NCBI RefSeq assembly: GCF_007005445.1
Contig: NZ_CP041387.1
Span: forward strand, 1,674,001-1,738,000
Length of the DNA stretch: 64,000 bases
DNA from: Rhodopseudomonas palustris
GTDB lineage: Bacteria; Pseudomonadota; Alphaproteobacteria; Rhizobiales; Xanthobacteraceae
Reading direction: 5' to 3'
Part shown: in pieces, positions 9,088 to 20,840 of the stretch
Layout of the letters: every line of letters starts with the position of its first letter
Position numbering within the stretch: the stretch's first letter is position 1
Translations under genes and position numbers: made by a program
The notes under the pieces: model-generated
Databases searched by the model: none
The model's input: only the letters and a program-made list of their open reading frames with translations
What the model was told of the DNA's origin: nothing

Positions 9088-9344
9088 ATCCGCCCCCGCG
9101 TTCGCCGGGGCTTCTCTACCACTCCAGGTTTAGCAAGAGAAGGGATGGGTGTATCTTGGGTTGAAAAATGCTGCGGGGGCTCAGGGGAGGCGCGGCGGCG
9201 AGAGCATTCTGATCGCACGCGAAGTCGCTGGCGAGCGGCCGATCGCGGTGCATCAAATTACTGCACAAAGGCGGTAAAAGCGGCAGGTTTCGCATCAACA
9301 ATGCGCTTGACTTGAACTACGAACTCGACGACCGTAATCACCAA

Positions 9345-9371
9345 GCGTTGGGCAACTAAGCCCTGAGACGC
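9345..9371 (+). promoter_or_regulatory. Leader hairpin with six-base loop upstream of amiC (candidate ANTAR target)
   Basis: In the amiC leader GGGC (9350-9353) pairs with GCCC (9360-9363) around the loop AACTAA. An outer helix GCGT/ACGC (9345-9348 with 9368-9371) extends it. A second helix, CGCGC (9398-9402) with GCGCG (9411-9415), lies downstream. ANTAR proteins bind pairs of hairpins with six-base loops; the usual loop has A at position 1 and G at position 4. Here position 1 fits and position 4 is T. A possible promoter lies just upstream (TTGAAC at 9312, TAATCA at 9335), weakly supported. 9088-9344 holds nothing else recognised. Confidence 0.45.
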
Positions 9372-9429
9372 AAAGAGTTTTGAACCATTTCCGACACCGC
9401 GCCGATCGATGCGCGTTTGGTTGGTGGCG

Positions 9430-9471
9430 AAAGCGCCCTCGGCTCGACAGCCGATGGGCGCTTTTTGTTTT
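9430..9471 (+). terminator. Intrinsic terminator (attenuator) before amiC
   Basis: AAAGCGCCC (9430-9438) pairs with GGGCGCTTT (9456-9464). An inner helix TCGGCT/AGCCGA closes on the loop CGAC, and TTTTTGTTTTT follows directly. It ends only 12 bases before the amiC ATG and no gene ends upstream on this strand. It therefore acts inside the leader of the amiC operon. With the ANTAR protein AmiR encoded two genes on, this fits transcription attenuation relieved by AmiR. Confidence 0.88.
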
Positions 9472-9482
9472 TGGACACGAGC

Positions 9483-10640
9483 ATGACGAAGCGGCTGCGC
9501 ATCGGTGTGATGTTCTCGACGACCGGCTCCTACGGGGCGGTCGGGCGCACCATGCTGAACGGCGCGTTGCTCGGGCTCAGCGAGGTCGCCGCCGGCGGCA
9601 ACGGGCCGGAGATCGAGCCGGTCATCGTCAATCCAGGCGGTGACCTGTCGCGTTATCGCGCTCTGGCCCACGACCTGCTGGCCTCCGGCGTCCGGCAGGT
9701 GATCGGCTGCTACACCTCGTCGAGCCGCAAAGAGGTGATCCCGTGCTTCGAGAAGCACGATGGCCTGTTGTGGTATCCGTCGCATTATGAGGGCTTCGAG
9801 AGCTCCGACAACGTCGTCTACACCGGCGCCTCGCCGAACCAGCACGTGTTGCCGCTGGTCGATTATCTCTCCGCCAAGCACGGCAAGCGCGCGTTCTGCA
9901 TCGGCTCGAATTACATCTGGGCGTGGGAGAACAATCGGATCTTCCGCGAAGCCCTGATCGCCCGTGGCGGCACCGTGCTCGCAGAGCGTTATCTCGCTGT
10001 CGGCGACACCGATGTCGATCGCGTCATCGCGGCGATCCTGGAGCAGCGTCCGGATTTCGTCTTCAACAATCTGATCGGCACCAGCGCCTACGCGTTCTTC
10101 CGCGCGTTTCGTGCCGCCTGCCGGGCGCGCGGCATCGACCAGGCCGCCGAAATCCCGGTGGCGAGCTGCACGCTGGCCGAGCCGGAGCTGGCCGAAATCG
10201 GCGCCGAAGCCGTCGACGGACATCTGTCGTCGAGCGTGTATTTCGCTTCGCTGGCCGGGGCGGCAAATGACGCTTTCACCCATGCCTACGCGACGAAATT
10301 TCCGGATGCGCCGCCGACCTCGGCGGATGCCGAGGCCTGCTATATCGCGGTCAAGCTGCTCGCCGCTGCTCTGCAACAGGCCGGAACCGACGAGGCCGCC
10401 GCAGTACGCGCGGCCGTCGCCGACCAGCGCCTGATCGCTCCGCAAGGCGAGGTGCGGATCGATCCGCAGACCTATCACGCCTGGCTGACACCGCGGATCG
10501 GCCGGTCGACCGCGTCCGGCCAGTTCGAAGTGCTGCTCGAAGCTCCCGAACCGATCGCACCCGATCCATATCTGGTGCAAACCTCGCCGCGGTTCGCCGC
10601 CGCCATGCGTTCCCCATTGTTGAGGCTGGTGAAGTCATGA
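9483..10640 (+). CDS. amiC: AmiC-like amide sensor and negative regulator of AmiR
   Basis: A 385-residue periplasmic-binding-protein fold starting MTKRLRIGVMFSTTGSYGAV at ATG 9483. An upstream GTG in frame at 9417 lies before the terminator and is rejected. There is no signal peptide, so the protein is cytoplasmic. Conserved family features include IGCYTSSSRKEVIPCFEKHD and LLWYPSHYEGFE. In Pseudomonas aeruginosa AmiC binds short-chain amides and releases AmiR, allowing antitermination. The stop overlaps the amiR start by 4 bases. The terminator right before the gene and the ANTAR partner behind it support AmiC over a transport protein. Confidence 0.88.
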   Translation: MTKRLRIGVMFSTTGSYGAVGRTMLNGALLGLSEVAAGGNGPEIEPVIVNPGGDLSRYRALAHDLLASGVRQVIGCYTSSSRKEVIPCFEKHDGLLWYPSHYEGFESSDNVVYTGASPNQHVLPLVDYLSAKHGKRAFCIGSNYIWAWENNRIFREALIARGGTVLAERYLAVGDTDVDRVIAAILEQRPDFVFNNLIGTSAYAFFRAFRAACRARGIDQAAEIPVASCTLAEPELAEIGAEAVDGHLSSSVYFASLAGAANDAFTHAYATKFPDAPPTSADAEACYIAVKLLAAALQQAGTDEAAAVRAAVADQRLIAPQGEVRIDPQTYHAWLTPRIGRSTASGQFEVLLEAPEPIAPDPYLVQTSPRFAAAMRSPLLRLVKS

Positions 10641-11302
10641 CCTTTCGACCGGTTCAGAACTTCAAGGGCGGCCGTGCGCTCGTGGTGATGGAACGCACGG
10701 GCAGGGAAGGCGCGCTGGAGCCGACGCTGGCCAAGCTCGGCGTCAGTTGCGAGGCCGCGCCGATCATCGACGGACGGGCTCAGATCGACCTCGCTTCGCT
10801 GGTGCCTGATCGCGACATCCTGTTCGTCGATGGCGATCTCGACGGCGTGCTGGCGATCGACCTCAATCCGCTGTCGCAGTTGCCGCCGGTGCCGGTGATC
10901 GGGCTGGTCGGCGTCGAGGCGCCGAGCCGGCTGAAGGCGCTGGTCAATCTCGGCGCCACCGCGTTCCTGCGCAAGCCGGTGCACGGCGGCGCCGTGTACT
11001 CGGCGCTGTTCATGGGCATCAACCAGTTTCTCCTGCGCGGCGGGATGCAGGAGCGCCTGCAAACGCTCGAGGAGCGCCGTCGCGGCCGCAGGGCCGTGCT
11101 GCGCGCCGTGGTCCAGCGGATGCGGGACAGCGGCCTCGACGAGGACGGCGCTTACGACCAGATCCGCCGGGAGAGCATGCGCGTGAGGCAGAGCCTGGAG
11201 AGTTACTGCGAGGATCTGCTGAGCCGACGGGCGAGGCCGCCCGATTCGACTGGCCACACCGGCACTCCGCCGCTGCACCGTGGCGACAAACGAGCGATGT
11301 AG
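10637..11302 (+). CDS. amiR: AmiR-like ANTAR-domain transcription antiterminator
   Basis: A 221-residue protein. Residues about 1-125 form a pseudo-receiver domain that lacks the normal phosphorylation signature. A coiled linker follows, then a C-terminal ANTAR domain: LRAVVQRMRDSGLDEDGAYD followed by QIRRESMRVRQSLESYCEDL. ANTAR domains bind RNA hairpins and prevent terminator formation. It is translationally coupled to amiC, as in the P. aeruginosa pair, where AmiC holds AmiR inactive until an amide binds. The target is most likely the leader terminator at 9430-9471. Confidence 0.88.
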   Translation: MTFRPVQNFKGGRALVVMERTGREGALEPTLAKLGVSCEAAPIIDGRAQIDLASLVPDRDILFVDGDLDGVLAIDLNPLSQLPPVPVIGLVGVEAPSRLKALVNLGATAFLRKPVHGGAVYSALFMGINQFLLRGGMQERLQTLEERRRGRRAVLRAVVQRMRDSGLDEDGAYDQIRRESMRVRQSLESYCEDLLSRRARPPDSTGHTGTPPLHRGDKRAM

Positions 11303-11313
11303 GAGACAGCAAC

Positions 11314-12552
11314 ATGACCGGAACTGTGTTACGGGGACTGCATGCCGCAGTCCTCACGGGGACGCTTGTCCTCGCGTCAAGCGCGGCGCTGGCCGCGGAG
11401 AAGCCGATCAAGCTCGGCGTGCTGGAGGATCAGTCGGGCGATTTCGCGGTGGCGACGATCGGCAAGGTCCACGCCATCCAACTCGCCGCCGAAGAGATCA
11501 ACAAGGCCGGCGGCATCATGGGGCGGCCGCTCGAACTGGTGGTGTACGACACCCAGTCCGACAACACCCGCTATCAGGAGTTCATGCGCCGGGTGCTGCA
11601 ACGGGACAAGGCCGACGCGGTATTCGCCGGCTTCTCCTCGGCCTCACGCGAGGCGTATCGGCCGATCGTCGATCAGCTCAACGGCTTCGCGTTCTACAAC
11701 AATCAGTACGAAGGCGGCGTCTGCGACGGCCACATGATCGTCACCGGCGCGGTGCCCGAGCAGCAGTTCTCCACGCTGATCCCGTGGATGATGGAGAAAT
11801 ACGGCAAGAAGGTCTACACGCTGGCCGCCGACTACAATTTCGGCCAGATCTCGGCCGAGTGGGTGCGCAACATCGTCAAGCAGCACGGCGGCGAGATGGC
11901 CGGCGAGGAGTTCATCCCGCTCGGCGTGTCGCAGTTCTCGCAGAGCATCCAGAACATCCAGAAGGCCAAGCCGGACTTCATCGTGACGCTGCTGGTCGGC
12001 ACTGCGCAGGCTTCGTACTACGAACAGGCCGCCTCCGCCAACGTCAATCTGCCGATGGCTTCCTCAGTCAACGTCGGCCAGGGCTACGAGCACAAGCGCT
12101 TCAAGCCGCCGAGCCTGAAGGACATGTACGTCACCACCAACTACATCGAGGAAATCGACTCGCCGCAGAGCAAGGCGTTCCTGGCCAAGTTCAAGGCCAA
12201 ATTCCCGAACGAGCCCTATGTCAATCAGGAGGCCGAGAACTCCTATCTGGCCGTGTATCTCTACAAGCAGATGGTGGAGCGGGCGAAGTCGACCAATCGC
12301 GACGACATCCGCAAGGTGATCGCGCAGGGCGACGTCTGCATGGACGCACCGGAAGGCAAGGTCTGCATCGATCCGAAGAGCCAGCATATGTCGCACACCA
12401 TCTACCTGGCGCACGTCAATGCCGACCACTCGATCGACTTCCCGAAGGTCTGGCCGGATATCAAGCCGTATTGGCTGGGTGAGGCCGGCTGCGACCTGAC
12501 CAAGAAGGATCCGATGGCGCAATACACGCCGTCGAACCCGCCGCCCAAGTAA
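11314..12552 (+). CDS. urtA: Periplasmic substrate-binding protein of a urea/short-chain-amide ABC transporter
   Basis: A 412-residue protein with an AGGAG ribosome binding site and a Sec signal peptide (residues 1 to about 28, cleavage after SAALA). The mature part is a type I periplasmic-binding fold: IKLGVLEDQSGDFAVATIGK, then GRPLELVVYDTQSDNTRYQE and NNQYEGGVCDGHMIV. This family includes UrtA and the FmdD protein of amide transport. It opens the five-gene transporter cassette and is separated from the permease gene by a strong hairpin. Its fold is shared with AmiC, so transporter and regulator may recognise the same amide. Confidence 0.85.
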   Translation: MTGTVLRGLHAAVLTGTLVLASSAALAAEKPIKLGVLEDQSGDFAVATIGKVHAIQLAAEEINKAGGIMGRPLELVVYDTQSDNTRYQEFMRRVLQRDKADAVFAGFSSASREAYRPIVDQLNGFAFYNNQYEGGVCDGHMIVTGAVPEQQFSTLIPWMMEKYGKKVYTLAADYNFGQISAEWVRNIVKQHGGEMAGEEFIPLGVSQFSQSIQNIQKAKPDFIVTLLVGTAQASYYEQAASANVNLPMASSVNVGQGYEHKRFKPPSLKDMYVTTNYIEEIDSPQSKAFLAKFKAKFPNEPYVNQEAENSYLAVYLYKQMVERAKSTNRDDIRKVIAQGDVCMDAPEGKVCIDPKSQHMSHTIYLAHVNADHSIDFPKVWPDIKPYWLGEAGCDLTKKDPMAQYTPSNPPPK

Positions 12553-12562
12553 GTGCGGCGGA

Positions 12563-12594
12563 CCGCTCCGGCGCACCCTGACGCGCCGGAGCGG
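12563..12594 (+). promoter_or_regulatory. Stable intercistronic hairpin after the binding-protein gene
   Basis: CCGCTCCGGCGC (12563-12574) pairs perfectly with GCGCCGGAGCGG (12583-12594) around the loop ACCCTGAC. No T-run follows, so it is not a classical terminator. It begins 10 bases after the urtA stop. Such a structure can protect the upstream mRNA from 3' exonucleases and give more binding protein than permease. Confidence 0.65.
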
Positions 12595-12668
12595 CTGCTT
12601 CTCCGCTCAATGGACATTCGTCGGGCCGCCGGAGCCGCGGCCCTCCACGCCACCTTGTTGGACGTCAG

Positions 12669-13541
12669 ATGGACATCGCCACCTTCGCCTTCGCGGCGCT
12701 GTATCAATTCGCCGACGCCTTCGCCTTCCTGGTGCTGTCGGCCTGCGGGCTCGCCGTCATCTTCGGCATGATGGGCGTCATCAATCTCGCCCACGGCGAG
12801 TTCATCATGTGCGGCGCCTATGTCACCGCCAGCGCCGTGCACGCCGGGCTGCCGCTGCCGCTCGCCATCCTGACCGGAGCGCTGGTCTCCGCGGTGGTCG
12901 GCATGCTGGTCGAGTTCGTGGTGGTGCGGCATCTCTATGAGCGCCCGCTCGACACCATCGTCGCCACCTGGGGGCTCAGCCTGATCGCAACGCAAGGGAC
13001 GCTGATCGTGATCGGCTCGACCATGGCCGGTGTCGGCACGCCGTTCGGCAGCTTTCAGGTCGGCGCCTATTCGTATTCGATCTATCGGATCGTGCTGTTC
13101 CTGGCCGCGCTCGGCGTGCTCGGGGCGCTGTATGCGGTGTTCAATTGGACCTCGTTCGGCGTGAAAGCCCGCGCCACCATCCAGGTGCCGCATATGGCGG
13201 ATGCGCTCGGCGTCGACACCCGCTGGATCTACAGCCTGACCTTCGCCTGCGGCGCCGGACTCGCCGGGCTTGCCGGCGGGCTGTACGCGCCGACCATGAC
13301 GCTGGTGCCGACGATGGGCGCGACCTTCCTGATGGAGGCGTTCGTCACCGTGGTGATCGGCGGCGCCGACGTCTTCCTCGGCACTGCGCCGGCCGCGGCA
13401 GTCCTGGCAGTGGTGAAGTCGGCGATGACCTCCTGGCAGGGCCAGTTGTTCGGCCAGATCGGCCTGTTGGTCGCGGTGATCATCGTGGTCCGGGTGCTGC
13501 CGAAAGGCATCTCCGGCTTCCTGCTGCGCGAACGGACCTGA
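12669..13541 (+). CDS. urtB: Urea/amide ABC transporter permease (LivH type)
   Basis: A 290-residue integral membrane protein with about eight hydrophobic segments. The LivH/UrtB signature FGMMGVINLAHGEFIMCGAY lies at residues 35-54, and TFLMEAFVTVVIGGADVFLG lies near the C-terminus. It forms the translocation channel together with the next permease. It follows urtA after 116 bases that include a hairpin, and is 11 bases upstream of the second permease gene. Confidence 0.88.
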   Translation: MDIATFAFAALYQFADAFAFLVLSACGLAVIFGMMGVINLAHGEFIMCGAYVTASAVHAGLPLPLAILTGALVSAVVGMLVEFVVVRHLYERPLDTIVATWGLSLIATQGTLIVIGSTMAGVGTPFGSFQVGAYSYSIYRIVLFLAALGVLGALYAVFNWTSFGVKARATIQVPHMADALGVDTRWIYSLTFACGAGLAGLAGGLYAPTMTLVPTMGATFLMEAFVTVVIGGADVFLGTAPAAAVLAVVKSAMTSWQGQLFGQIGLLVAVIIVVRVLPKGISGFLLRERT

Positions 13542-13552
13542 GGGAGGCGAGG

Positions 13553-14617
13553 GTGAGCGGTTTGATCTCTCTGTTTCGCCGGCTCGAAGGCCCGCAGACC
13601 AAGGGCCGCGGCAAGCTATTCTGGTCGGTGTTCGTGCTCGCGCTGATCGGCGCGATCGCGTATCCGATGTTCAGCGACGGCTACACCGTCGGCAACACTG
13701 CGTACTTTTTCGTCTGGGTGTTCATCGCGCTCAGCCTGTGCCTGATCTGGGGCTATGGCGGCGCGCTGTCGTTCGGCCAGACCGCGTTCTTCGGTATCGC
13801 CGGCTACAGCTACGGCATCCTGACGCTGAATTTCGGCGCGGCGTACGGCTTCACGCTCGTCGCCGTGCTGGCGGCGGTCCTGATCGCCGCGGTGGTGGCG
13901 CTGCTGCTCGGCTACTTCATGTTCTTCGGCCGGATCGAAGGCGTGTTTCTCGGCATCGTCACGCTGGCCGTGACCCTGATGCTGGAGCGCTTCATGGCCC
14001 AGACCGCCGGCCCGGAATGGCGGATCGGCGCGGCGCGGCTCAACGGCTTCAACGGCATGAGCGGAATGCCGCCGATCACCATCCCCTGGTTCGACGGGCC
14101 GATCGTGCTGTTCGCCGATGTCGGGCTGTATTACCTGATCCTGGCGCTGGTGGTGGTGGTCTATCTCGGCCTGCGCATCCTGGTGAACTCCTCGTTCGGC
14201 AACGTCATCGTGGCGATCCGTGAGAATCCGGAGCGCGCCGAAATGCTCGGTTACGACATCCGCAAATATCAGCTCATCAATTTCGTTATCGGCGCCGGGC
14301 TCGCCGGCCTGTCGGGCGTGCTCTACACCGCCTGGGGCCAGTACATCACCCCGTCGAGCATGGGCATGACGTCGGCGGCGCTGCCGCTGATCTGGGTCGC
14401 GGTCGGCGGCCGCAGTGACCTGACCTCGACGCTGGTCGGCACGCTGGTGGTGCTGGCCGGCTTCCAGGCGCTGACGATCTACGGCAGCCAATATGCGCTG
14501 GTGGTGATGGGGCTTCTGCTGGTGCTCACCGTGCTGATCGCGCCGAACGGCCTGGTGCTCGGCGCAATGAACGTGATCGGCCGGCTCGTCGCCCGCGCCC
14601 AGGGAGGACGGAACTGA
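13553..14617 (+). CDS. urtC: Urea/amide ABC transporter permease (LivM type)
   Basis: The GTG at 13553, preceded by GAGGGAGGCGAG, gives a 354-residue protein starting MSGLISLFRRLEGPQTKGRG. The frame is open much further upstream, but that part overlaps urtB. About nine membrane segments are present with the LivM/UrtC signatures LIWGYGGALSFGQTAFFGIA and VIVAIRENPERAEMLGYDIR. It is the second channel subunit. The stop overlaps the start of the ATPase gene by one base. Confidence 0.88.
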   Translation: MSGLISLFRRLEGPQTKGRGKLFWSVFVLALIGAIAYPMFSDGYTVGNTAYFFVWVFIALSLCLIWGYGGALSFGQTAFFGIAGYSYGILTLNFGAAYGFTLVAVLAAVLIAAVVALLLGYFMFFGRIEGVFLGIVTLAVTLMLERFMAQTAGPEWRIGAARLNGFNGMSGMPPITIPWFDGPIVLFADVGLYYLILALVVVVYLGLRILVNSSFGNVIVAIRENPERAEMLGYDIRKYQLINFVIGAGLAGLSGVLYTAWGQYITPSSMGMTSAALPLIWVAVGGRSDLTSTLVGTLVVLAGFQALTIYGSQYALVVMGLLLVLTVLIAPNGLVLGAMNVIGRLVARAQGGRN

Positions 14618-15339
14618 TGGCGCTCCTGCAACTCCGCGGCCTGAACAAGCATTTCGGCGGGCTGCACGTCACCAACCAGGTCAACCTGTCGTTCGAGACC
14701 GGCGAGATCCACTGCCTGATCGGCCCCAACGGCGCCGGCAAGAGCACGCTGTTCCGGCTGATCCTCGGCGAATACGCGCCGGGCTCCGGCGAGATCTTCT
14801 TCGCCGGCGAGGACATCACCGCGCTCAAATCGTTCGCGCGGATCGCGCGCGGTCTGTCTGTGAAGTTTCAGGTGCCCGGCGTGTTCAAAGGGCTGTCGGT
14901 GCGCCAGAACCTCGAAATCGCGCTGCAACGGACGCGGCACGGCGCCGAACTCGACCGCGAGATCGACCGGCTGCTGGCCTTCCTCGGCCTCGAGGCCGAG
15001 CAGAACCAGACTGCCGGCAATCTCAGCCACGGCCAGAAGCAGTGGTTGGAGATCGGCATGGCGACCAGCCTGAAGCCGCGGATGCTGCTGCTCGACGAAC
15101 CGACCGCCGGGATGTCGCCGGAAGAGACGTTCCAGACCGGCGAGATGGTCAAGCGGCTGAATGCCGAAGGCATGACGGTGCTGGCGATCGAGCACGACAT
15201 GGCGTTCGTCCGCCAGGTCGCGCAGCGCGTCACCGTGCTGCATCTCGGTCAGGTGTTCGCGCAAGGCTCGATCGACGACATCGTCGCCGACGAGCGGGTC
15301 GCGGCGATCTATCTCGGGCAGGCTCATCACCATGCGTAA
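14617..15339 (+). CDS. urtD: Urea/amide ABC transporter ATP-binding protein (LivG type)
   Basis: A 240-residue ABC ATPase with Walker A GPNGAGKST, signature LSHGQKQWLEIG, Walker B MLLLDEPTAG and switch histidine in LAIEHD. LSHGQKQWLEIG is the form seen in UrtD proteins, which supports a urea/amide rather than a branched-chain amino acid transporter. It overlaps both neighbours by a few bases, so the transporter genes are translated as a unit. Confidence 0.9.
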   Translation: MALLQLRGLNKHFGGLHVTNQVNLSFETGEIHCLIGPNGAGKSTLFRLILGEYAPGSGEIFFAGEDITALKSFARIARGLSVKFQVPGVFKGLSVRQNLEIALQRTRHGAELDREIDRLLAFLGLEAEQNQTAGNLSHGQKQWLEIGMATSLKPRMLLLDEPTAGMSPEETFQTGEMVKRLNAEGMTVLAIEHDMAFVRQVAQRVTVLHLGQVFAQGSIDDIVADERVAAIYLGQAHHHA

Positions 15340-16045
15340 GGAAGTCATCCTCAACACCGTGGGGCTGCGTGCCGGCTATGGCGGAAAGCCAGTCTTGCAG
15401 GGTCTCGAGATCGAAGTCCGCGAGGGCGAGATCATCGCGGTGATCGGCCGCAACGGCGTCGGCAAGTCGACGCTGATGAAGAGCTTGATCGGCCTGATCC
15501 CGGCGATGGACGGCTCGATCGTGTTCCGCGGCGACGCCATCGAGCATCTGCCGGCGTTCAAGCGGGCGCGGCTCGGCATTGGCTATGTGCCGCAGGGCCG
15601 CGACGTGTTTCCGCGCCTCAGCGTCGCCGAGAACATCGCGGTCGGCGCCTCGATCAAGGGCCGGCTCACCGAGCAGCAGCGCCGCGAGGTGGTCGAGACG
15701 TTTCCGATCCTCGGCGAGCGCTGGAGCCAGCGCGCCGGCACGATGTCCGGCGGCCAGCAGCAGCAGCTCGCGATCGGGCGCGTGCTGGTGGCGGATCCCG
15801 AACTGATCCTGCTCGACGAGCCGTCGGAAGGCATCCAGCCCAACATCGTCCAGGACATCGCCCGCGACATGGTCGCGCTCAACGCCAGGACCGGCGTCAC
15901 CATCATCCTGGTCGAGCAGAACCTCGACATGATCCGGGCGATGGCGCAGCGCTGCTACGTCATGGACAAGGGCCGGATCGTCGCCGACCTCGACCGCGCC
16001 GCGCTCGACGACGAGGCCGAAATGCGCCGCCACCTCGCGGTGTAA
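15332..16045 (+). CDS. urtE: Urea/amide ABC transporter ATP-binding protein (LivF type)
   Basis: A 237-residue ABC ATPase starting MRKEVILNTVGLRAGYGGKP. Walker A is GRNGVGKST, the signature is MSGGQQQQLAIGR, Walker B is LILLDEPSEGIQPN and the switch region is ILVEQN. The DEPSEGIQPN variant is typical of UrtE. It overlaps urtD by 8 bases and ends 24 bases before the formamidase gene, which links uptake with hydrolysis. Confidence 0.9.
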   Translation: MRKEVILNTVGLRAGYGGKPVLQGLEIEVREGEIIAVIGRNGVGKSTLMKSLIGLIPAMDGSIVFRGDAIEHLPAFKRARLGIGYVPQGRDVFPRLSVAENIAVGASIKGRLTEQQRREVVETFPILGERWSQRAGTMSGGQQQQLAIGRVLVADPELILLDEPSEGIQPNIVQDIARDMVALNARTGVTIILVEQNLDMIRAMAQRCYVMDKGRIVADLDRAALDDEAEMRRHLAV

Positions 16046-16069
16046 CTGAATTCAACAAAGGAGACCAAC

Positions 16070-17059
16070 ATGGCCTGGCAGACTGAATCGATCATGGCGC
16101 GCAAGGGCGTCGCCAAGGGCGTGCGCGGCAAGAGCCACACCATTACCGAGGCGGAGCAGGGCAAGTATCACTACGTCTACGGGCCGTATTTCGACAAGGT
16201 CCTGACTGTCGACCCCGGTGCGGTGGTGGCGGCCGAAACCCACGACGCGTTCGAGGGCGCGATCAAGTCTGAGACCGACATCCCGTCTAAGATCCTCAAC
16301 TTCCCGTTCCTCAATCCGCAGAACGGCCCGATCTGGGTCAATGGCGCCGAGAAGGGCGACACGCTCGCCGTGTACATCGAGAGCATCGTTCCGCGCGGGC
16401 CGCAGCCGCGGGGCACCACGGTGGTGATGCCGGAGTTCGGCGGCCTGGTCGGCACCGGCAACACCGCGCTGCTCAACCCGCCGCTGCCGGAGCGGGTCAA
16501 GAAGCTCGAAATCACCGCCGAGCACGGCACCAAATGGAACGACAAGATCACGCTGCCGTATGAGCCGTTCATCGGCACCATCGGCACCTCGCCGGAGATC
16601 GAGGCGATCTCGTCGCTGGTCCCGGATTACTACGGCGGCAACATGGATCTGCCGGATGTCGGCGTCGGCGCCATCATCTATCTGCCGGTGAACACCGCGG
16701 GCGCGCTGCTCTATCTCGGCGATTGCCACGCCGCCCAGGGCGACGGCGAGCTCTGCGGCGTCGCGATCGAGCATCCGACCGTGACCACGGTGCAGATCGA
16801 TCTGATCAAGGGCTGGCCGATCCATTGGCCGCGGCTGGAGACCAAGGATTTCATCATGACGATCGGCTCGGCGCGGCCGATGGAGGATGCCGCCCGCATC
16901 GCCTATCGCGAGCTGTGCCGCTGGATGGCGGCGGATTACGGCTTCGACGAGATCGACGCCTACATGCTGCTGACCCAGGCCGGTCGCGTCCGGCTCGGCA
17001 ACATGGTCGATCCGAAATACACGCTCGGCGCGTCGATCAAGAAGTCGTTCCTGGTGTAA
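16070..17059 (+). CDS. fmdA: Acetamidase/formamidase family amidohydrolase
   Basis: A 329-residue protein with an AAAGGAG ribosome binding site. Family motifs include TVDPGAVVAAETHDAFEGAI, NPQNGPIWVNGAEKGDTLAV, LLYLGDCHAAQGDGELCG and ARIAYRELCRWMAADYGFDE. FmdA-type enzymes hydrolyse formamide or acetamide to the acid and ammonium. Adjacent regulation by AmiC/AmiR and a dedicated transporter indicate use of short-chain amides as nitrogen source. Length is somewhat shorter than the roughly 400-residue FmdA of Methylophilus but matches the shorter branch of the family. Confidence 0.88.
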   Translation: MAWQTESIMARKGVAKGVRGKSHTITEAEQGKYHYVYGPYFDKVLTVDPGAVVAAETHDAFEGAIKSETDIPSKILNFPFLNPQNGPIWVNGAEKGDTLAVYIESIVPRGPQPRGTTVVMPEFGGLVGTGNTALLNPPLPERVKKLEITAEHGTKWNDKITLPYEPFIGTIGTSPEIEAISSLVPDYYGGNMDLPDVGVGAIIYLPVNTAGALLYLGDCHAAQGDGELCGVAIEHPTVTTVQIDLIKGWPIHWPRLETKDFIMTIGSARPMEDAARIAYRELCRWMAADYGFDEIDAYMLLTQAGRVRLGNMVDPKYTLGASIKKSFLV

Positions 17060-17074
17060 GGGGGGGCGACGGCG

Positions 17075-18814
17075 ATGTCGCAACTGCTGAAGGTCGCTAC
17101 CGTCCAGTTCGAGCCGACCATGGCCGAGAAGGAGCGCAACATCGCGCGCCTGCTCGAGCTGTGCGAGGAGGCGGCGGTAGGGGGCGCCAAACTGATCGTC
17201 ACCCCGGAGATGGGGACCACCGGCTATTGCTGGTACGATCGCGCCGAAGTGGCGCCGTTCGTCGAGCCGATCCCGGGGCCGACCACGGCACGGTTCGCCG
17301 CACTGGCGCGCAAGCACGATTGCTACATCGTCGTCGGCCTTCCGGAGGTCGATGGGGACGGCATCTATTACAATTCCGCCGTCCTGATCGGCCCGGACGG
17401 ATTGATCGGGCGTCACCGCAAGACGCATCCCTATATCTCCGAGCCGAAATGGTCGGCGGCGGGCGATCTGCACAATCAGGTGTTCGACACCCCGATCGGG
17501 CGGATCGCGCTGTTGATCTGCATGGATATCCATTTCGTCGAGACCGCGCGGCTGATGGCGCTGGGTGGCGCCGACATCATCTGCCACATCTCCAACTGGC
17601 TGGCCGAGCGCACGCCTGCGCCGTATTGGATCAGCCGGGCGTTCGAAAATTCCTGCTACGTGATCGAGAGCAATCGCTGGGGGCTGGAGCGCACCGTGCA
17701 GTTCTCCGGCGGAAGCTGCGTGATCGCGCCGGACGGCAGCATCGCCGCGGTGATCGACGGCGGCGACGGCGTGGCGTTCGCCGAGATCGATCTTGAAACC
17801 GCGCGGGCGCGGCGGATCGGCGGCGAGGCGGTGTTCCGGCAGCGGCGGCCCGAGCTGTATCCGGAACTGCTGACCGGCACCTTCAGTTGGAATCCGTACG
17901 ACTTCTTTGGCCTGTACGGCCACGAGGCGTGGCCGAGGGGCAAGCGCTCCAAGCTCAGCGCCGCGCAGTTCGCCCCGAGCGGCGACATCAGCGCCAATCT
18001 CGATCGGATCGAGGCGCTGGCCCGGCAGGCGAAGGCGGCCGGCGCCGAGATGGTGGTGTTTCCCGAGCTGAGCGTCACCGGGATCGACGATCCGGCGCGC
18101 ACAGCCGTCGCTGTGCCGAGCCCGGCGACTGACCGGCTCGCTGCGCTGGCGGGCGAGCTGTCGCTGCATCTTGTCTGCGGCCTCGCCGAGCGCGACGGCG
18201 ACGTGCTGTACAACAGCGCGGCGCTGATCGCCCCTGACGGTCGTATCACCATCTATCGCAAGACGCATCTGACCGAGGACGAGCGGAGCTGGGCTGCGGC
18301 TGGTGACAGCTTCGTCGTGACCGATACGCCGCTCGGCCGCGTCGGCCTGCTGATCGGGCACGACGCGATGTTTCCAGAGGCCGGCCGCGTGCTGGCGCTG
18401 CGCGGCTGCGACATCATCGTATGCCCGGCGGCGATCGCGACCCGTTTCAGCACGCCGCACGCCGGGACGAGCGTCTCGCAGCCGGCACCGATCCCGACCG
18501 GGGCCGATCCGCATCATTGGCATCACTTCCGCGTCCGCGCCGGCGAGAACAACGTGTTCTTCGCCTTCGCCAACGTGGCCGATGCGGCGCGCGGCTATCT
18601 TGGGCTGAGCGGCGTGTTCGGACCGGATACGTTCGAATTTCCGCGCCGCGAGGCACTGATCGAAGGCGGGGAGGGCGTCGCCACCGCAACGATCGACACC
18701 TCCAATCTCGACAGCGTGTATCCGACCAACGTGGTGAGGCGGAAGGATCTGGTGGCGATGCGGATGCCGCACAGCTACCGGCCGCTGGTACAGGCCGTTG
18801 CCGGCAACTACTAA
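17075..18814 (+). CDS. Tandem two-domain nitrilase-superfamily protein; second domain lacks the catalytic Cys
   Basis: A 579-residue protein made of two carbon-nitrogen hydrolase domains. Domain 1 (about 5-275) has the complete triad: E45 in TPEMGTTGY, K116 in HRKTHPY and C149 in LLICMD. Domain 2 (about 290-575) keeps E331 in FPELSVTG and K396 in YRKTHLTEDE, but the nucleophile position is glycine (G428, LLIGHD). The second half therefore should not hydrolyse amides or nitriles and may be structural or regulatory. It follows fmdA by 15 bases and likely acts on amides or nitriles of the same pathway. The exact substrate is unknown. Confidence 0.85.
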   Translation: MSQLLKVATVQFEPTMAEKERNIARLLELCEEAAVGGAKLIVTPEMGTTGYCWYDRAEVAPFVEPIPGPTTARFAALARKHDCYIVVGLPEVDGDGIYYNSAVLIGPDGLIGRHRKTHPYISEPKWSAAGDLHNQVFDTPIGRIALLICMDIHFVETARLMALGGADIICHISNWLAERTPAPYWISRAFENSCYVIESNRWGLERTVQFSGGSCVIAPDGSIAAVIDGGDGVAFAEIDLETARARRIGGEAVFRQRRPELYPELLTGTFSWNPYDFFGLYGHEAWPRGKRSKLSAAQFAPSGDISANLDRIEALARQAKAAGAEMVVFPELSVTGIDDPARTAVAVPSPATDRLAALAGELSLHLVCGLAERDGDVLYNSAALIAPDGRITIYRKTHLTEDERSWAAAGDSFVVTDTPLGRVGLLIGHDAMFPEAGRVLALRGCDIIVCPAAIATRFSTPHAGTSVSQPAPIPTGADPHHWHHFRVRAGENNVFFAFANVADAARGYLGLSGVFGPDTFEFPRREALIEGGEGVATATIDTSNLDSVYPTNVVRRKDLVAMRMPHSYRPLVQAVAGNY

Positions 18815-18829
18815 CCGAGGGGAGCGAGC

Positions 18830-19591
18830 ATGGATCTGGGATTGAAGGGCGCCAAGGTACTGGTCACCGGCGGCACCAAAGGCATCGGGCGGGCGATCGC
18901 CGAAACCTTCGCGGCGGAAGGCGCGCATGTCGGCCTGTGCGCGCGCAATGCGGCAGAGGTCGACAGCGCGGTAGCGGCGCTGCAGGCGACCGGCGCGTCC
19001 GCCTTCGGCGGCGCGGTGGATGTGTCCGATGGGCCGGGGTTGAAGGCATGGGTCGCCGACATGGCGGCCAAGCTCGGCGGCATCGATGTGGTGGTCGCCA
19101 ATGTCAGCGCGCTGGCGATCGGCTCGGACGAAGAGAGCTGGGCCAAGGGCTTTACCACCGACATGATGGGCACTGTGCGGCTGGTCGATGCAGCGATGCC
19201 GTACCTCGAACAGAGTCAGCAGCCGGCGATCGTCACCGTCTCCAGCGTCTCGGGCCGTGAGATCGACTTCGCGGCGGGGCCCTACGGCACCTTCAAGGCG
19301 GCGATCATCCACTACACCCAGGGCCTCGCCTATCAGCTCGCCGGCAAGGGAATCCGCGCCAACACCGTCTCGCCCGGCAATACGTATTTCGAGGGCGGGG
19401 TGTGGGAGCAGATCAAGAACGGCAACCCCGATCTCTACAACACCGCGCTGGCTCTCAACCCGACCGGCCGGATGGGCACGCCGCAGGAGATGGCGAATGC
19501 CGTGGTGTTTCTTGCCAGCCGCGCCGCCAGCTTCATCACCGGCACCAATGTAGTGGTCGATGGCGCGCTCACCCGTGGCGTGCAATTCTGA
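18830..19591 (+). CDS. Short-chain dehydrogenase/reductase
   Basis: A 253-residue SDR starting MDLGLKGAKVLVTGGTKGIG, with the nucleotide-binding TGGTKGIG motif. Catalytic Ser lies in TVSSVSGREI and the YxxxK pair in PYGTFKAA. The usual NNAG motif is replaced by VANVSA. A C-terminal FITGTNVVVDGALTRG is typical. It is the last gene of the amide unit, 15 bases after the nitrilase gene. Its substrate is not predictable; it may oxidise an alcohol or aldehyde formed from a substituted amide. Confidence 0.85.
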   Translation: MDLGLKGAKVLVTGGTKGIGRAIAETFAAEGAHVGLCARNAAEVDSAVAALQATGASAFGGAVDVSDGPGLKAWVADMAAKLGGIDVVVANVSALAIGSDEESWAKGFTTDMMGTVRLVDAAMPYLEQSQQPAIVTVSSVSGREIDFAAGPYGTFKAAIIHYTQGLAYQLAGKGIRANTVSPGNTYFEGGVWEQIKNGNPDLYNTALALNPTGRMGTPQEMANAVVFLASRAASFITGTNVVVDGALTRGVQF

Positions 19592-19762
19592 AGTGCTGCA
19601 CGTCAAGATAGGCCGGCTTCATTCTGTAGGATGGAATGATGGTATCACCAATTACCTTTGTGGGGTGAGCACGCCCAAATAACCAAGTGCCGCGTGCTGA
19701 TCAGTTGCGACGCGGCCTTTGGATCAGGCTATACAGCCGCGTTCCGGGTGGTGGGGGCCGCG

Positions 19763-19948
19763 GTGTCGAGTAGCAGAAGTAACTGCGCGGTCTGTCGATC
19801 TGCGACGGAGCTGCTGCGCGCGCGACCGCTTGTCGAGGGCTACGAACTTCGCGACTATCCGTGCCCGCAATGCGGCCGCGTGTTTCAGATCGTCGTCAAG
19901 TGCGAGGAAGTTCAGCCGCGGCAACCGCCGCAGCCGGATAAGCCTTGA
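19763..19948 (+). CDS. Small zinc-ribbon-like hypothetical protein
   Basis: The GTG at 19763, after a GGGGG tract, gives 61 residues with two CxxC pairs: NCAVC near the N-terminus and YPCPQCGRVF about 25 residues later. This suggests a treble-clef or zinc-ribbon fold. The frame is open to a TTG at 19658, but that extension looks non-coding. Its 3' end overlaps the convergent modC by 53 bases, which lowers confidence. No function can be assigned. Confidence 0.45.
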   Translation: MSSSRSNCAVCRSATELLRARPLVEGYELRDYPCPQCGRVFQIVVKCEEVQPRQPPQPDKP

Positions 19949-20840
19949 GCCGGTCGCCGGGGGCGGGCGCGGTGCATTGCACCACGGCCTGATCGACCCG
20001 GAGCGTCACCGGATCGCCGACGCTGAGGTCACTCACTCCTGACAGGCGGAGCCGAAGTTTGCGGCCGTCGACCAGCACTGCGCAGGTGCCGCTCGCATTG
20101 CGTTCGTCGAGATAGATGCCGGTGACGACAAACGGATCGCTGCGCGCGACGCTGCCGAATGACTCGGCAGGCGTGCCGTCGAACACCACGCGGCCGTGCT
20201 CCATCCGCACCAGGCGGTCGGCGAGGCGGAGGATTTCCGAAGGATCGTGGCTGACCAGCAGCGTCGTGGTGGCGAAGCGGCGATGCAGCCGCAGCAGATC
20301 GTCCTGCAGCTTGCGTCGCATCGCCGGATCGAGCGCCGACAGCGGCTCGTCGAGCATCAGCAGAGCCGGCCGCCGCGCCAGCACCCGGATCAGCGCCAGC
20401 CGCTGCTTCTGGCCACCGGACAGCCGGTCCGGCATGGCGTCGGCGAGGCCATGAAGCTCGACCAGGTGCAGCAGTTCGTCGACCTCGTCGCGACACCGAC
20501 GTGATCCGATCGCGTAGTCGACGTTGCCTCGCACCGTCATGTTCGGAAACAGCGCGTAGTCCTGAAACACCAGCCCGATCGAGCGCTTCCGCGTCGGCAC
20601 GTGCAGCCGTGCTGCGGTGTCGCACCAGTGTGTCGCGCCGATGCGGATGCTGCCCTCCGCCGGCCGTGTCAGTCCTGCGGCGGCGCGGAGCAGGGTGGTC
20701 TTGCCGGCGCCTGAGGGACCGGTGATCGCCAGCAGCGAGCCGGGCGCGATCGTCAGATCGACGTCGAGCCAGAATGGCCCGGCGGGCCCGCTCAGCGGTG
20801 TCCGGATGCGCAGCGCGATGTCGTCGGTCCGATTCTCCAT
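19896..20840 (-). CDS. modC: Molybdate ABC transporter ATP-binding protein ModC
   Basis: With ATG at 20840 the protein has 314 residues; the frame opens to 20906, but that stretch contains the ModE-type operator. ABC motifs are Walker A GPSGAGKTT, signature LSGGQKQR, Walker B LLMLDEPLSALDP and LLVSHD. The segment RSIGLVFQDYALFPNMTV is typical of ModC. A C-terminal TOBE-like domain (from about 245) is expected to bind oxyanion. It is divergent from modA-modB and shares their control region. Confidence 0.87.
   Translation of the reverse strand: MENRTDDIALRIRTPLSGPAGPFWLDVDLTIAPGSLLAITGPSGAGKTTLLRAAAGLTRPAEGSIRIGATHWCDTAARLHVPTRKRSIGLVFQDYALFPNMTVRGNVDYAIGSRRCRDEVDELLHLVELHGLADAMPDRLSGGQKQRLALIRVLARRPALLMLDEPLSALDPAMRRKLQDDLLRLHRRFATTTLLVSHDPSEILRLADRLVRMEHGRVVFDGTPAESFGSVARSDPFVVTGIYLDERNASGTCAVLVDGRKLRLRLSGVSDLSVGDPVTLRVDQAVVQCTAPAPGDRLKAYPAAAVAAAELPRT

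Follow-up and report, generated by a model that had tools for sequence, protein, structure and literature searches.

A conserved attenuator lacking canonical ANTAR loop letters, probably opened by AmiR, at the head of an amide operon in Rhodopseudomonas palustris

The window analysed here is a stretch of 64,000 nt, part of the 5.04-Mb genome of the photosynthetic bacterium Rhodopseudomonas palustris (NZ_CP041387.1, positions 1,674,001 to 1,738,000). A conserved attenuator spans 9342-9473 of the window, in the order promoter-like boxes, first hairpin (P1), middle stem-loop (PM), second hairpin (P2) and terminator, followed by amiC-amiR and eight further genes. This head of an amide-use operon is probably an RNA on/off switch whose opener is a protein from the same operon. 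The features are:

9307-9335, + strand: promoter-like boxes TTGACT (9307-9312) and GACCGT (9330-9335), 17-nt spacer; box positions conserved
9345-9371, + strand: P1 hairpin; outer stem GCGUU/GACGC, 3-nt bulge UGA, inner stem GGGC/GCCC, loop AACUAA (9354-9359)
9372-9390, + strand: 19 unpaired bases whose 3' end is the conserved CAUUU(CC) (alignment)
9391-9424, + strand: PM stem-loop between P1 and P2; CCGAC/GUUGG and CGCGC/GCGCG (covariation)
9426-9437, + strand: P2, GGC - GAAAGC - GCC, putative antiterminator hairpin overlapping the terminator 5' arm (invariant stem, prefix fold)
9433-9472, + strand: intrinsic terminator; stem 9433-9443/9450-9461, then TTTTTGTTTTT at 9462-9472 (folds, covariation)
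9483-10640, + strand: amiC, cytoplasmic amide-sensor-like (kinship)
10637-11302, + strand: amiR; pseudo-receiver, coiled coil and ANTAR domain, 4-nt overlap with amiC (domains, predicted fold)
11314-16045, + strand: five urea/amide-type ABC transporter genes (binding protein, two permeases, two ATPases)
16070-17059, + strand: acetamidase/formamidase-family gene
17075-18814, + strand: carbon-nitrogen hydrolase gene
18830-19591, + strand: short-chain dehydrogenase gene

For comparison, amiC was scanned for in one genome per species, which gave 149 relatives. The best 80 of these 149 were kept and form, with the window, a set of 81 leaders (hereafter the best-80 set), 44 from Nitrobacteraceae (Rhodopseudomonas, Bradyrhizobium, Tardiphaga) and 37 from others. 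Four named Rhodopseudomonas genomes encode AmiC proteins with 97, 94, 94 and 82% identity to that of the window.

A ten-gene operon had been proposed by a sequence-only reading of this DNA, and ten co-oriented genes of the named families indeed lie downstream of the leader. Two of the names need correction. The gene called fmdA belongs to the acetamidase/formamidase family, but its product scores only 64 bits against the NCBI FmdA model, whose cut-off is 500. The 'nitrilase' is a carbon-nitrogen hydrolase of 579 aa with two carbon-nitrogen hydrolase stretches and is perhaps a tandem fusion. Terminator-like sites on both strands of 9480-19950 numbered seven, against 4.7 in shuffled sequences, so no second strong terminator stands out there. 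The gap between the binding-protein and first-permease genes holds a perfect 12-bp inverted repeat (12563-12574 with 12583-12594) that has no T-run; it is perhaps an RNA stability or partial attenuation element.

The nearest solved structure to AmiC by sequence is P. aeruginosa AmiC (E 1.1e-72), compared with 4.6e-66 for the receptor 8tg1 and ~1e-49 for urea-binding proteins. The protein thus has the AmiC-type binding-protein fold by kinship, begins directly at the fold with no visible signal peptide, and its gene adjoins amiR. AmiR scores 36.7 bits for the ANTAR domain (cut-off 27.3) and 20 bits for AmiR_N, below the cut-off of 27. Its predicted model (mean pLDDT 84; residues 203-221 below 50) has the AmiR-family architecture of pseudo-receiver, coiled coil and ANTAR domain, and the best PDB matches of this model are both AmiR chains of 1qo0, then RNA-bound EutV, 6ww6.

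We took the RNA contacts of EutV from PMC8934654 and transferred their positions by counting from the conserved tyrosine. Among the 81 AmiR proteins of the best-80 set, the positions of Arg142, Arg168, Met172 and Arg175 are kept in all, and that of Tyr164 is Tyr in 79 and Phe in two. The Lys149 position is Val, Ile or Thr in all 81; it is Lys in P. aeruginosa AmiR and Rv1626, according to the alignment. Pseudo-receiver residues Asp65, Asp67 and Lys113 (window 10829-10837 and 10973-10978; residues 65-67 and 113-114) are also kept in 81 of 81. Residues 18-22, the expected place of a receiver's acidic pair, are seldom acidic and show no conservation in this respect. One other ANTAR protein above the Pfam cut-off is encoded in the genome of the window (G000:C1:3056586-3056741, L146; 76.6 bits).

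By a pattern search, the P1 inner stem lies 40-45 nt after TTGAC in all 81 leaders of the best-80 set and exactly 43 nt after it in 70. In these 70, the second box has A at position 2 in 69 and T at position 6 in 69. A strict-consensus sigma-70 scan found no promoter at the leader. From the box positions, the transcript would start at ~9341-9344. Further upstream, 58 nt before TTGAC, the sequence TGCATCAAATTACTGCA (9249-9265) is a palindrome of the form TGCA-N9-TGCA. Its exact form occurs at -57 to -60 in 24 of the 44 Nitrobacteraceae leaders versus none of the 37 others of the best-80 set. We take this palindrome to be NtrC-like; it may place the attenuator under general nitrogen control as well.

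Of 200 dinucleotide shuffles of the region 9345-9500, 196 fold less well than the native sequence (z -2.62). Energies in the window are -13.2 kcal/mol for P1, -13.4 for PM, -3.6 for P2 and -22.2 for the terminator; with loop bases 1 and 6 paired, which would leave a four-base loop, P2 reaches -5.6 kcal/mol. The terminator is ~17-19 kcal/mol better than P2. The 3' arm of P2 doubles as the terminator 5' arm (alignment columns 106-108 belong to both; window 9435-9437), and P2 thereby overlaps and excludes the terminator. In prefix folds P2 appears earlier than the full terminator, and its loop bases 1 and 6 are paired there. Energies and prefix folds together favour the terminator, so termination would be the default and AmiR would have to trap P2 in time. 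A simple terminator scan found only a partial form of the leader terminator. The T-run ends 10 bases before the amiC ATG (9483), where 12 had been counted earlier.

The best unconstrained fold of the window places the PM region in a shifted register in which it occupies part of the P2 5' arm. This fold pairs CCAUU with GGUGG, hiding part of P2, and was considered as an anti-antiterminator. The relatives disfavour it: Bradyrhizobium rows mostly have C where U is needed, and Ancylobacter rows lack the CC (by eye).

PM was found in 67 of the 81 leaders of the best-80 set, 57 by pattern and ten by eye, and these 67 (64 distinct rows) were aligned. P1, PM and P2 pair in 95.7% of cells, and 10 pairs changed on both sides versus 4.3 in shuffles; for P1, PM and terminator the values were 96.7% and 15 versus 6.0. 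Neither count was reached in any of 500 shuffles. When the structure is slid along the alignment, 34-49% of cells pair, but the counted structure was drawn from the same sequences and so has an advantage in this comparison. RNAalifold, given no structure, recovered P1, the terminator and, of PM, the lower stem and some of the upper one. An attenuator with a hexaloop hairpin and a strong terminator ahead of amiC, as first read from the window, is therefore real by folds, covariation and RNAalifold; P2 and PM had been missed in that reading.

By sequence, P1 and P2 each have a stem of 3 bp or more and a six-base loop, and covariation adds support for P1. The search for paired hexaloop hairpins in relatives that had been suggested with the first reading gave a covarying P1 and an invariant P2. 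The P2 stem never varies in the 67 leaders, so covariation speaks neither for nor against it; conservation, overlap with the terminator and the loop consensus in relatives argue for P2 as a putative antiterminator. The C:G pair closing the loops of P1 and P2 is invariant in all 64 distinct rows. The P1 outer stem has mismatches in 17 of the 64 rows at one pair and in nine at another. We think that these come partly from misaligned leaders with a longer bulge, whose unpaired lengths are approximate. The stretch CAUUUCC (9386-9392), which reaches from the unpaired linker into PM, hardly varies (entropy of 0.09 bits in the Nitrobacteraceae rows and 0.19 bits in the 23 other rows) and is mostly unpaired in the consensus.

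To relate leader and regulator, a covariance model built from the 67 leaders and the AmiR protein were both searched in 296 genomes of the GTDB family, which holds Ancylobacter-like genomes too. AmiR reached at least 150 bits in 53 genomes and the leader at least 70 bits in 48, with both in 47. A strong leader occurred in only one of the 243 genomes without such an AmiR, and this is the telling figure, since the model was built partly from the same, related genomes. A co-oriented leader match lies 1.16-1.26 kb upstream of amiR in 51 of the 53 AmiR genomes. Among the six AmiR genomes with a leader below 70 bits, four hold weaker matches in place. The remaining two, G188 and G206, score 12.9 and 11.9 bits and have, by eye, P1-like and P2-like hairpins with A at loop position 1 (A1) and G at position 4 (G4) before amiC; G206 has an additional 23.7-bit match on a different contig. 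Matches at E ≤0.01 occurred in 86 of the 296 genomes, of which the co-occurrence count took only those of at least 30.6 bits; four weak matches without amiR that we examined (G008, G070, G016, G140) had no P1.

The exception, G167 (L151:8988-9116, - strand), has a leader followed by ~14 codons that resemble amiC, after which the resemblance ends. One side of its P1 inner stem is a base short, and the AmiR search, taken to E 1e-10, had no hit in this genome. This leader looks left behind after amiC truncation, with P1 altered. Among 347 genomes of the order, some of them shared with the family set, 19 of the 20 with an AmiR of at least 150 bits also matched the leader model at E ≤1e-4, one of them (G578) in the opposite orientation; G167 and G434 have a match without such an AmiR. 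The covariance model found no other leader in the genome of the window better than E 2. Taken together, the association with amiR and the anatomy of the leader strongly support AmiR/ANTAR antitermination at the level of sequence. The AmiR/ANTAR-type control proposed earlier is thus backed by the ANTAR domain, the predicted AmiR fold, the kinship of AmiC, the hairpin exclusive with the terminator and the tracking of amiR by the leader.

In four of the fetched genomes the covariance model also found a second leader, divergent from amiC (28.5-47.6 bits):

L159:7036-7139, - strand: second leader
L160:6322-6424, - strand: second leader
L163:1820-1923, - strand: second leader
L154:1325-1426, - strand: second leader

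All four have A1 and G4 in both loops (by eye), no PM and an unpaired linker of 24 nt. Downstream of the L159 leader lie genes for nitrile hydratase beta and alpha and for cobalt transport (Pfam), and the first divergent ORF in L154 looks like nitrile hydratase beta. AmiR therefore probably controls nitrile use in these relatives too, which would tie nitrile use to amide sensing.

The loops of the window depart from what ANTAR proteins are known to read. According to excerpts of PMC3369931 and PMC7496416, A1 and G4 of the hexaloops matter for EutV and NasR, and in EutV G4 flips out onto Tyr164 (excerpts of PMC8934654). In the window, P1 has AACUAA (A1, U4) and P2 GAAAGC (G1, A4). The departure at position 4 of AACTAA had been seen correctly and is larger than was noted, because G4 is in neither loop and P2 begins with G. 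By its sequence, the leader is not a canonical ANTAR target. Four other Rhodopseudomonas leaders all have P1 without G4, and one of them (L033) has P2 with G4.

Among the 37 others of the best-80 set, P1 has A1 and G4 in all. Their P2 has A1 in 28 and G4 in 31 of the 32 that were parsed; the P2 pattern missed five (L080, L087, L092, L102, L103), which all have A1 and G4 by eye. In the Nitrobacteraceae leaders of this set the P1 loop has six bases in 42 of 44 and seven in two; position 1 is A in 41 of the 42 hexaloops, and position 4 is G in 14, U in 15, A in 11 and C in two. Their P2 has G at position 1 in 42 of 44, and G (37) or A (7) at position 4. In the 44 Nitrobacteraceae rows, the entropy at P1 loop position 4 is 1.76 of 2 bits, nearly random, versus 0.02 bits in the frozen inner stem; in the 23 other rows of the alignment it is 0.00 at position 4. 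On a quick amiC+amiR tree with long branches outside Nitrobacteraceae, the G/not-G label needs at least four changes, and the starred branches force two; one leader counted among the others (L043) sits in the Nitrobacteraceae clade. We looked for a protein change behind the loss of G4. There were two candidates, Arg instead of Lys at the position of EutV Lys147 and Glu instead of Asp at that of Glu160. Both mark Nitrobacteraceae, and members that keep G4 share both, so they are no more than a lineage mark.

The near-random position 4 beside a frozen stem might mean that AmiR reads P2 only, and that P1 of Nitrobacteraceae has been kept as a hairpin at the 5' end for RNA protection or for the timing of transcription. 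P1 begins within a few bases of the probable transcript start, and excerpts of PMC8934654 propose a single hexaloop as the minimal ANTAR site; this would be a natural case of single-hexaloop recognition. Set against it are the A1 and six-base loop kept in nearly every Nitrobacteraceae P1, the window's P2, which also lacks G4, and the ~12-fold weaker binding of NasR to a single hairpin (excerpts of PMC7496416). We consider P2-only reading rather unlikely, while keeping it in serious account.

A decayed switch is a further candidate for Rhodopseudomonas: AmiR would no longer bind, and the operon would be permanently attenuated or live on leak. G4 is gone from both loops and is needed by EutV and NasR (excerpts of PMC3369931 and PMC7496416), and in G167 a leader appears to have outlasted amiR. 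Decay is nevertheless improbable. The amiR gene is intact, and five further Rhodopseudomonas genomes carry it at 94-97% identity. The aligned Nitrobacteraceae rows show little variation in the P1 inner stem, in PM or in the stems of P2 and the terminator, and most Nitrobacteraceae P2 loops keep G4.

The spacing of the two hairpins is also unusual. The excerpts of PMC3369931 give eut P1-P2 linkers of 5-12 nt, with drastically lower induction at 3 or 14 nt, and those of PMC8934654 report that lengthening the linker by 20 nt abolishes antitermination in vitro; an actinobacterial survey allowed linkers of 2-25 nt (excerpts of PMC8164766). Between the P1 outer stem and P2 we counted 54 nt in the window and 48-58 nt in the 67 PM leaders, so the linker is not short. 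All 67 have 17-20 unpaired nt ahead of PM, and a single base separates PM from P2. Four of the 14 PM-less leaders were measured, with linkers of 19, 19 and 20 nt (Methylobacterium) and 32 nt (Xanthobacter). These lengths suggest that PM was inserted as a folded element with little effect on the effective spacing. It may equally be that the EutV linker limit does not hold for these AmiR proteins.

PM and AUUUCC are highly conserved and have no known role, and a 25-codon ORF (9409-9486) overlaps the window leader. The leader could on these grounds answer to a leader peptide, or PM with AUUUCC could be a riboswitch-like element or the site of another protein. We hold such a signal to be highly improbable, given that the leader tracks amiR, that PM-less leaders exist before amiC and before nitrile hydratase, and that an Rfam search at the leader returned nothing beyond chance (best E 0.64). 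A leader peptide was rejected: 30 of the 67 leaders have no ATG and its position differs in the rest, by a count of ATG starts only.

Our preferred explanation is a dual-hairpin attenuator opened by AmiR, with a linker folded by PM and a relaxed reading of P1 in Nitrobacteraceae, and we put its probability at roughly 0.8. Several observations count against it: G4 is missing from both window loops and P2 begins with G, the 81 AmiR proteins lack the Lys149 equivalent, the linker is far longer than the published limits, P2 loop bases 1 and 6 can pair, and the best fold of the window shifts the PM register. Transcription would begin just before P1. With no inducer, AmiC would hold AmiR, the terminator would form and RNA polymerase would halt before amiC. 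An amide on AmiC would free AmiR, as in the P. aeruginosa system (excerpts of PMC3369931), and AmiR would meet the emerging P1 and then P2. By holding P2 it would keep the P2 3' arm out of the terminator, and the ten genes, including amiC and amiR, would be transcribed. PM would fold the long linker, leaving ~19 unpaired bases from P1 to the PM-P2 pair. Nitrobacteraceae AmiR would read P1 less strictly, with stem and A1 kept and G4 no longer required. Since amiC and amiR lie behind the switch, basal read-through would be needed and positive feedback would follow.

A more specific form of this explanation is put forward tentatively, at a little short of even odds. Nitrobacteraceae AmiR would have an altered RNA code in which G4 is dispensable and P1 is read by its stem and A1 only, and the conserved PM would spatially shorten a linker that exceeds published limits. 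Canonical and altered leaders would then coexist in one gene family, G4 having changed on at least two supported branches.

Published ANTAR searches rest on two rules: both loops carry A1 and G4, and the linker is short. Searches of this design would miss such leaders. A conserved leader that breaks both rules, beside relatives that keep A1 and G4, is a natural experiment on what ANTAR proteins read. Among the literature matches listed, with subscription literature mostly outside their scope, there was no paper on the amiC leader here, on a structured ANTAR linker or on Rhizobiales amiC leaders; PMC3369931 states that its tables include matches before urea transporters.

The leader resembles a textbook ANTAR switch but lacks letters known to be read and has a folded spacer in addition. 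With the P. aeruginosa AmiC-AmiR/amiE leader it shares the protein pair, by kinship, and an attenuator ahead of an amide operon. In contrast to P. aeruginosa, the operon here has an ABC transporter and other hydrolases, and the leader has the extra PM and no G4 in the window loops. The position of amiC-amiR as the first genes is presumably a further difference from the P. aeruginosa gene order. A hexaloop hairpin exclusive with the terminator is common to both systems, according to excerpts of PMC3369931. The Enterococcus faecalis EutV/eut leaders likewise have P1 and a P2 that overlaps the terminator, and most ANTAR RNA-contact residues are the same. EutV differs in being a phosphorylated response regulator, with linkers of 5-12 nt and with A1 and G4 in both loops (excerpts of PMC3369931 and PMC8934654). 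NasR/nasF and the NasT leaders share ANTAR antitermination in nitrogen metabolism, and the C:G loop-closing pair preferred by NasR in SELEX is present in both leader hairpins (excerpts of PMC7496416). NasR and NasT differ as nitrate sensors, and SELEX prefers A1 and G4 (same excerpts), whereas the window keeps only the A1 of P1.
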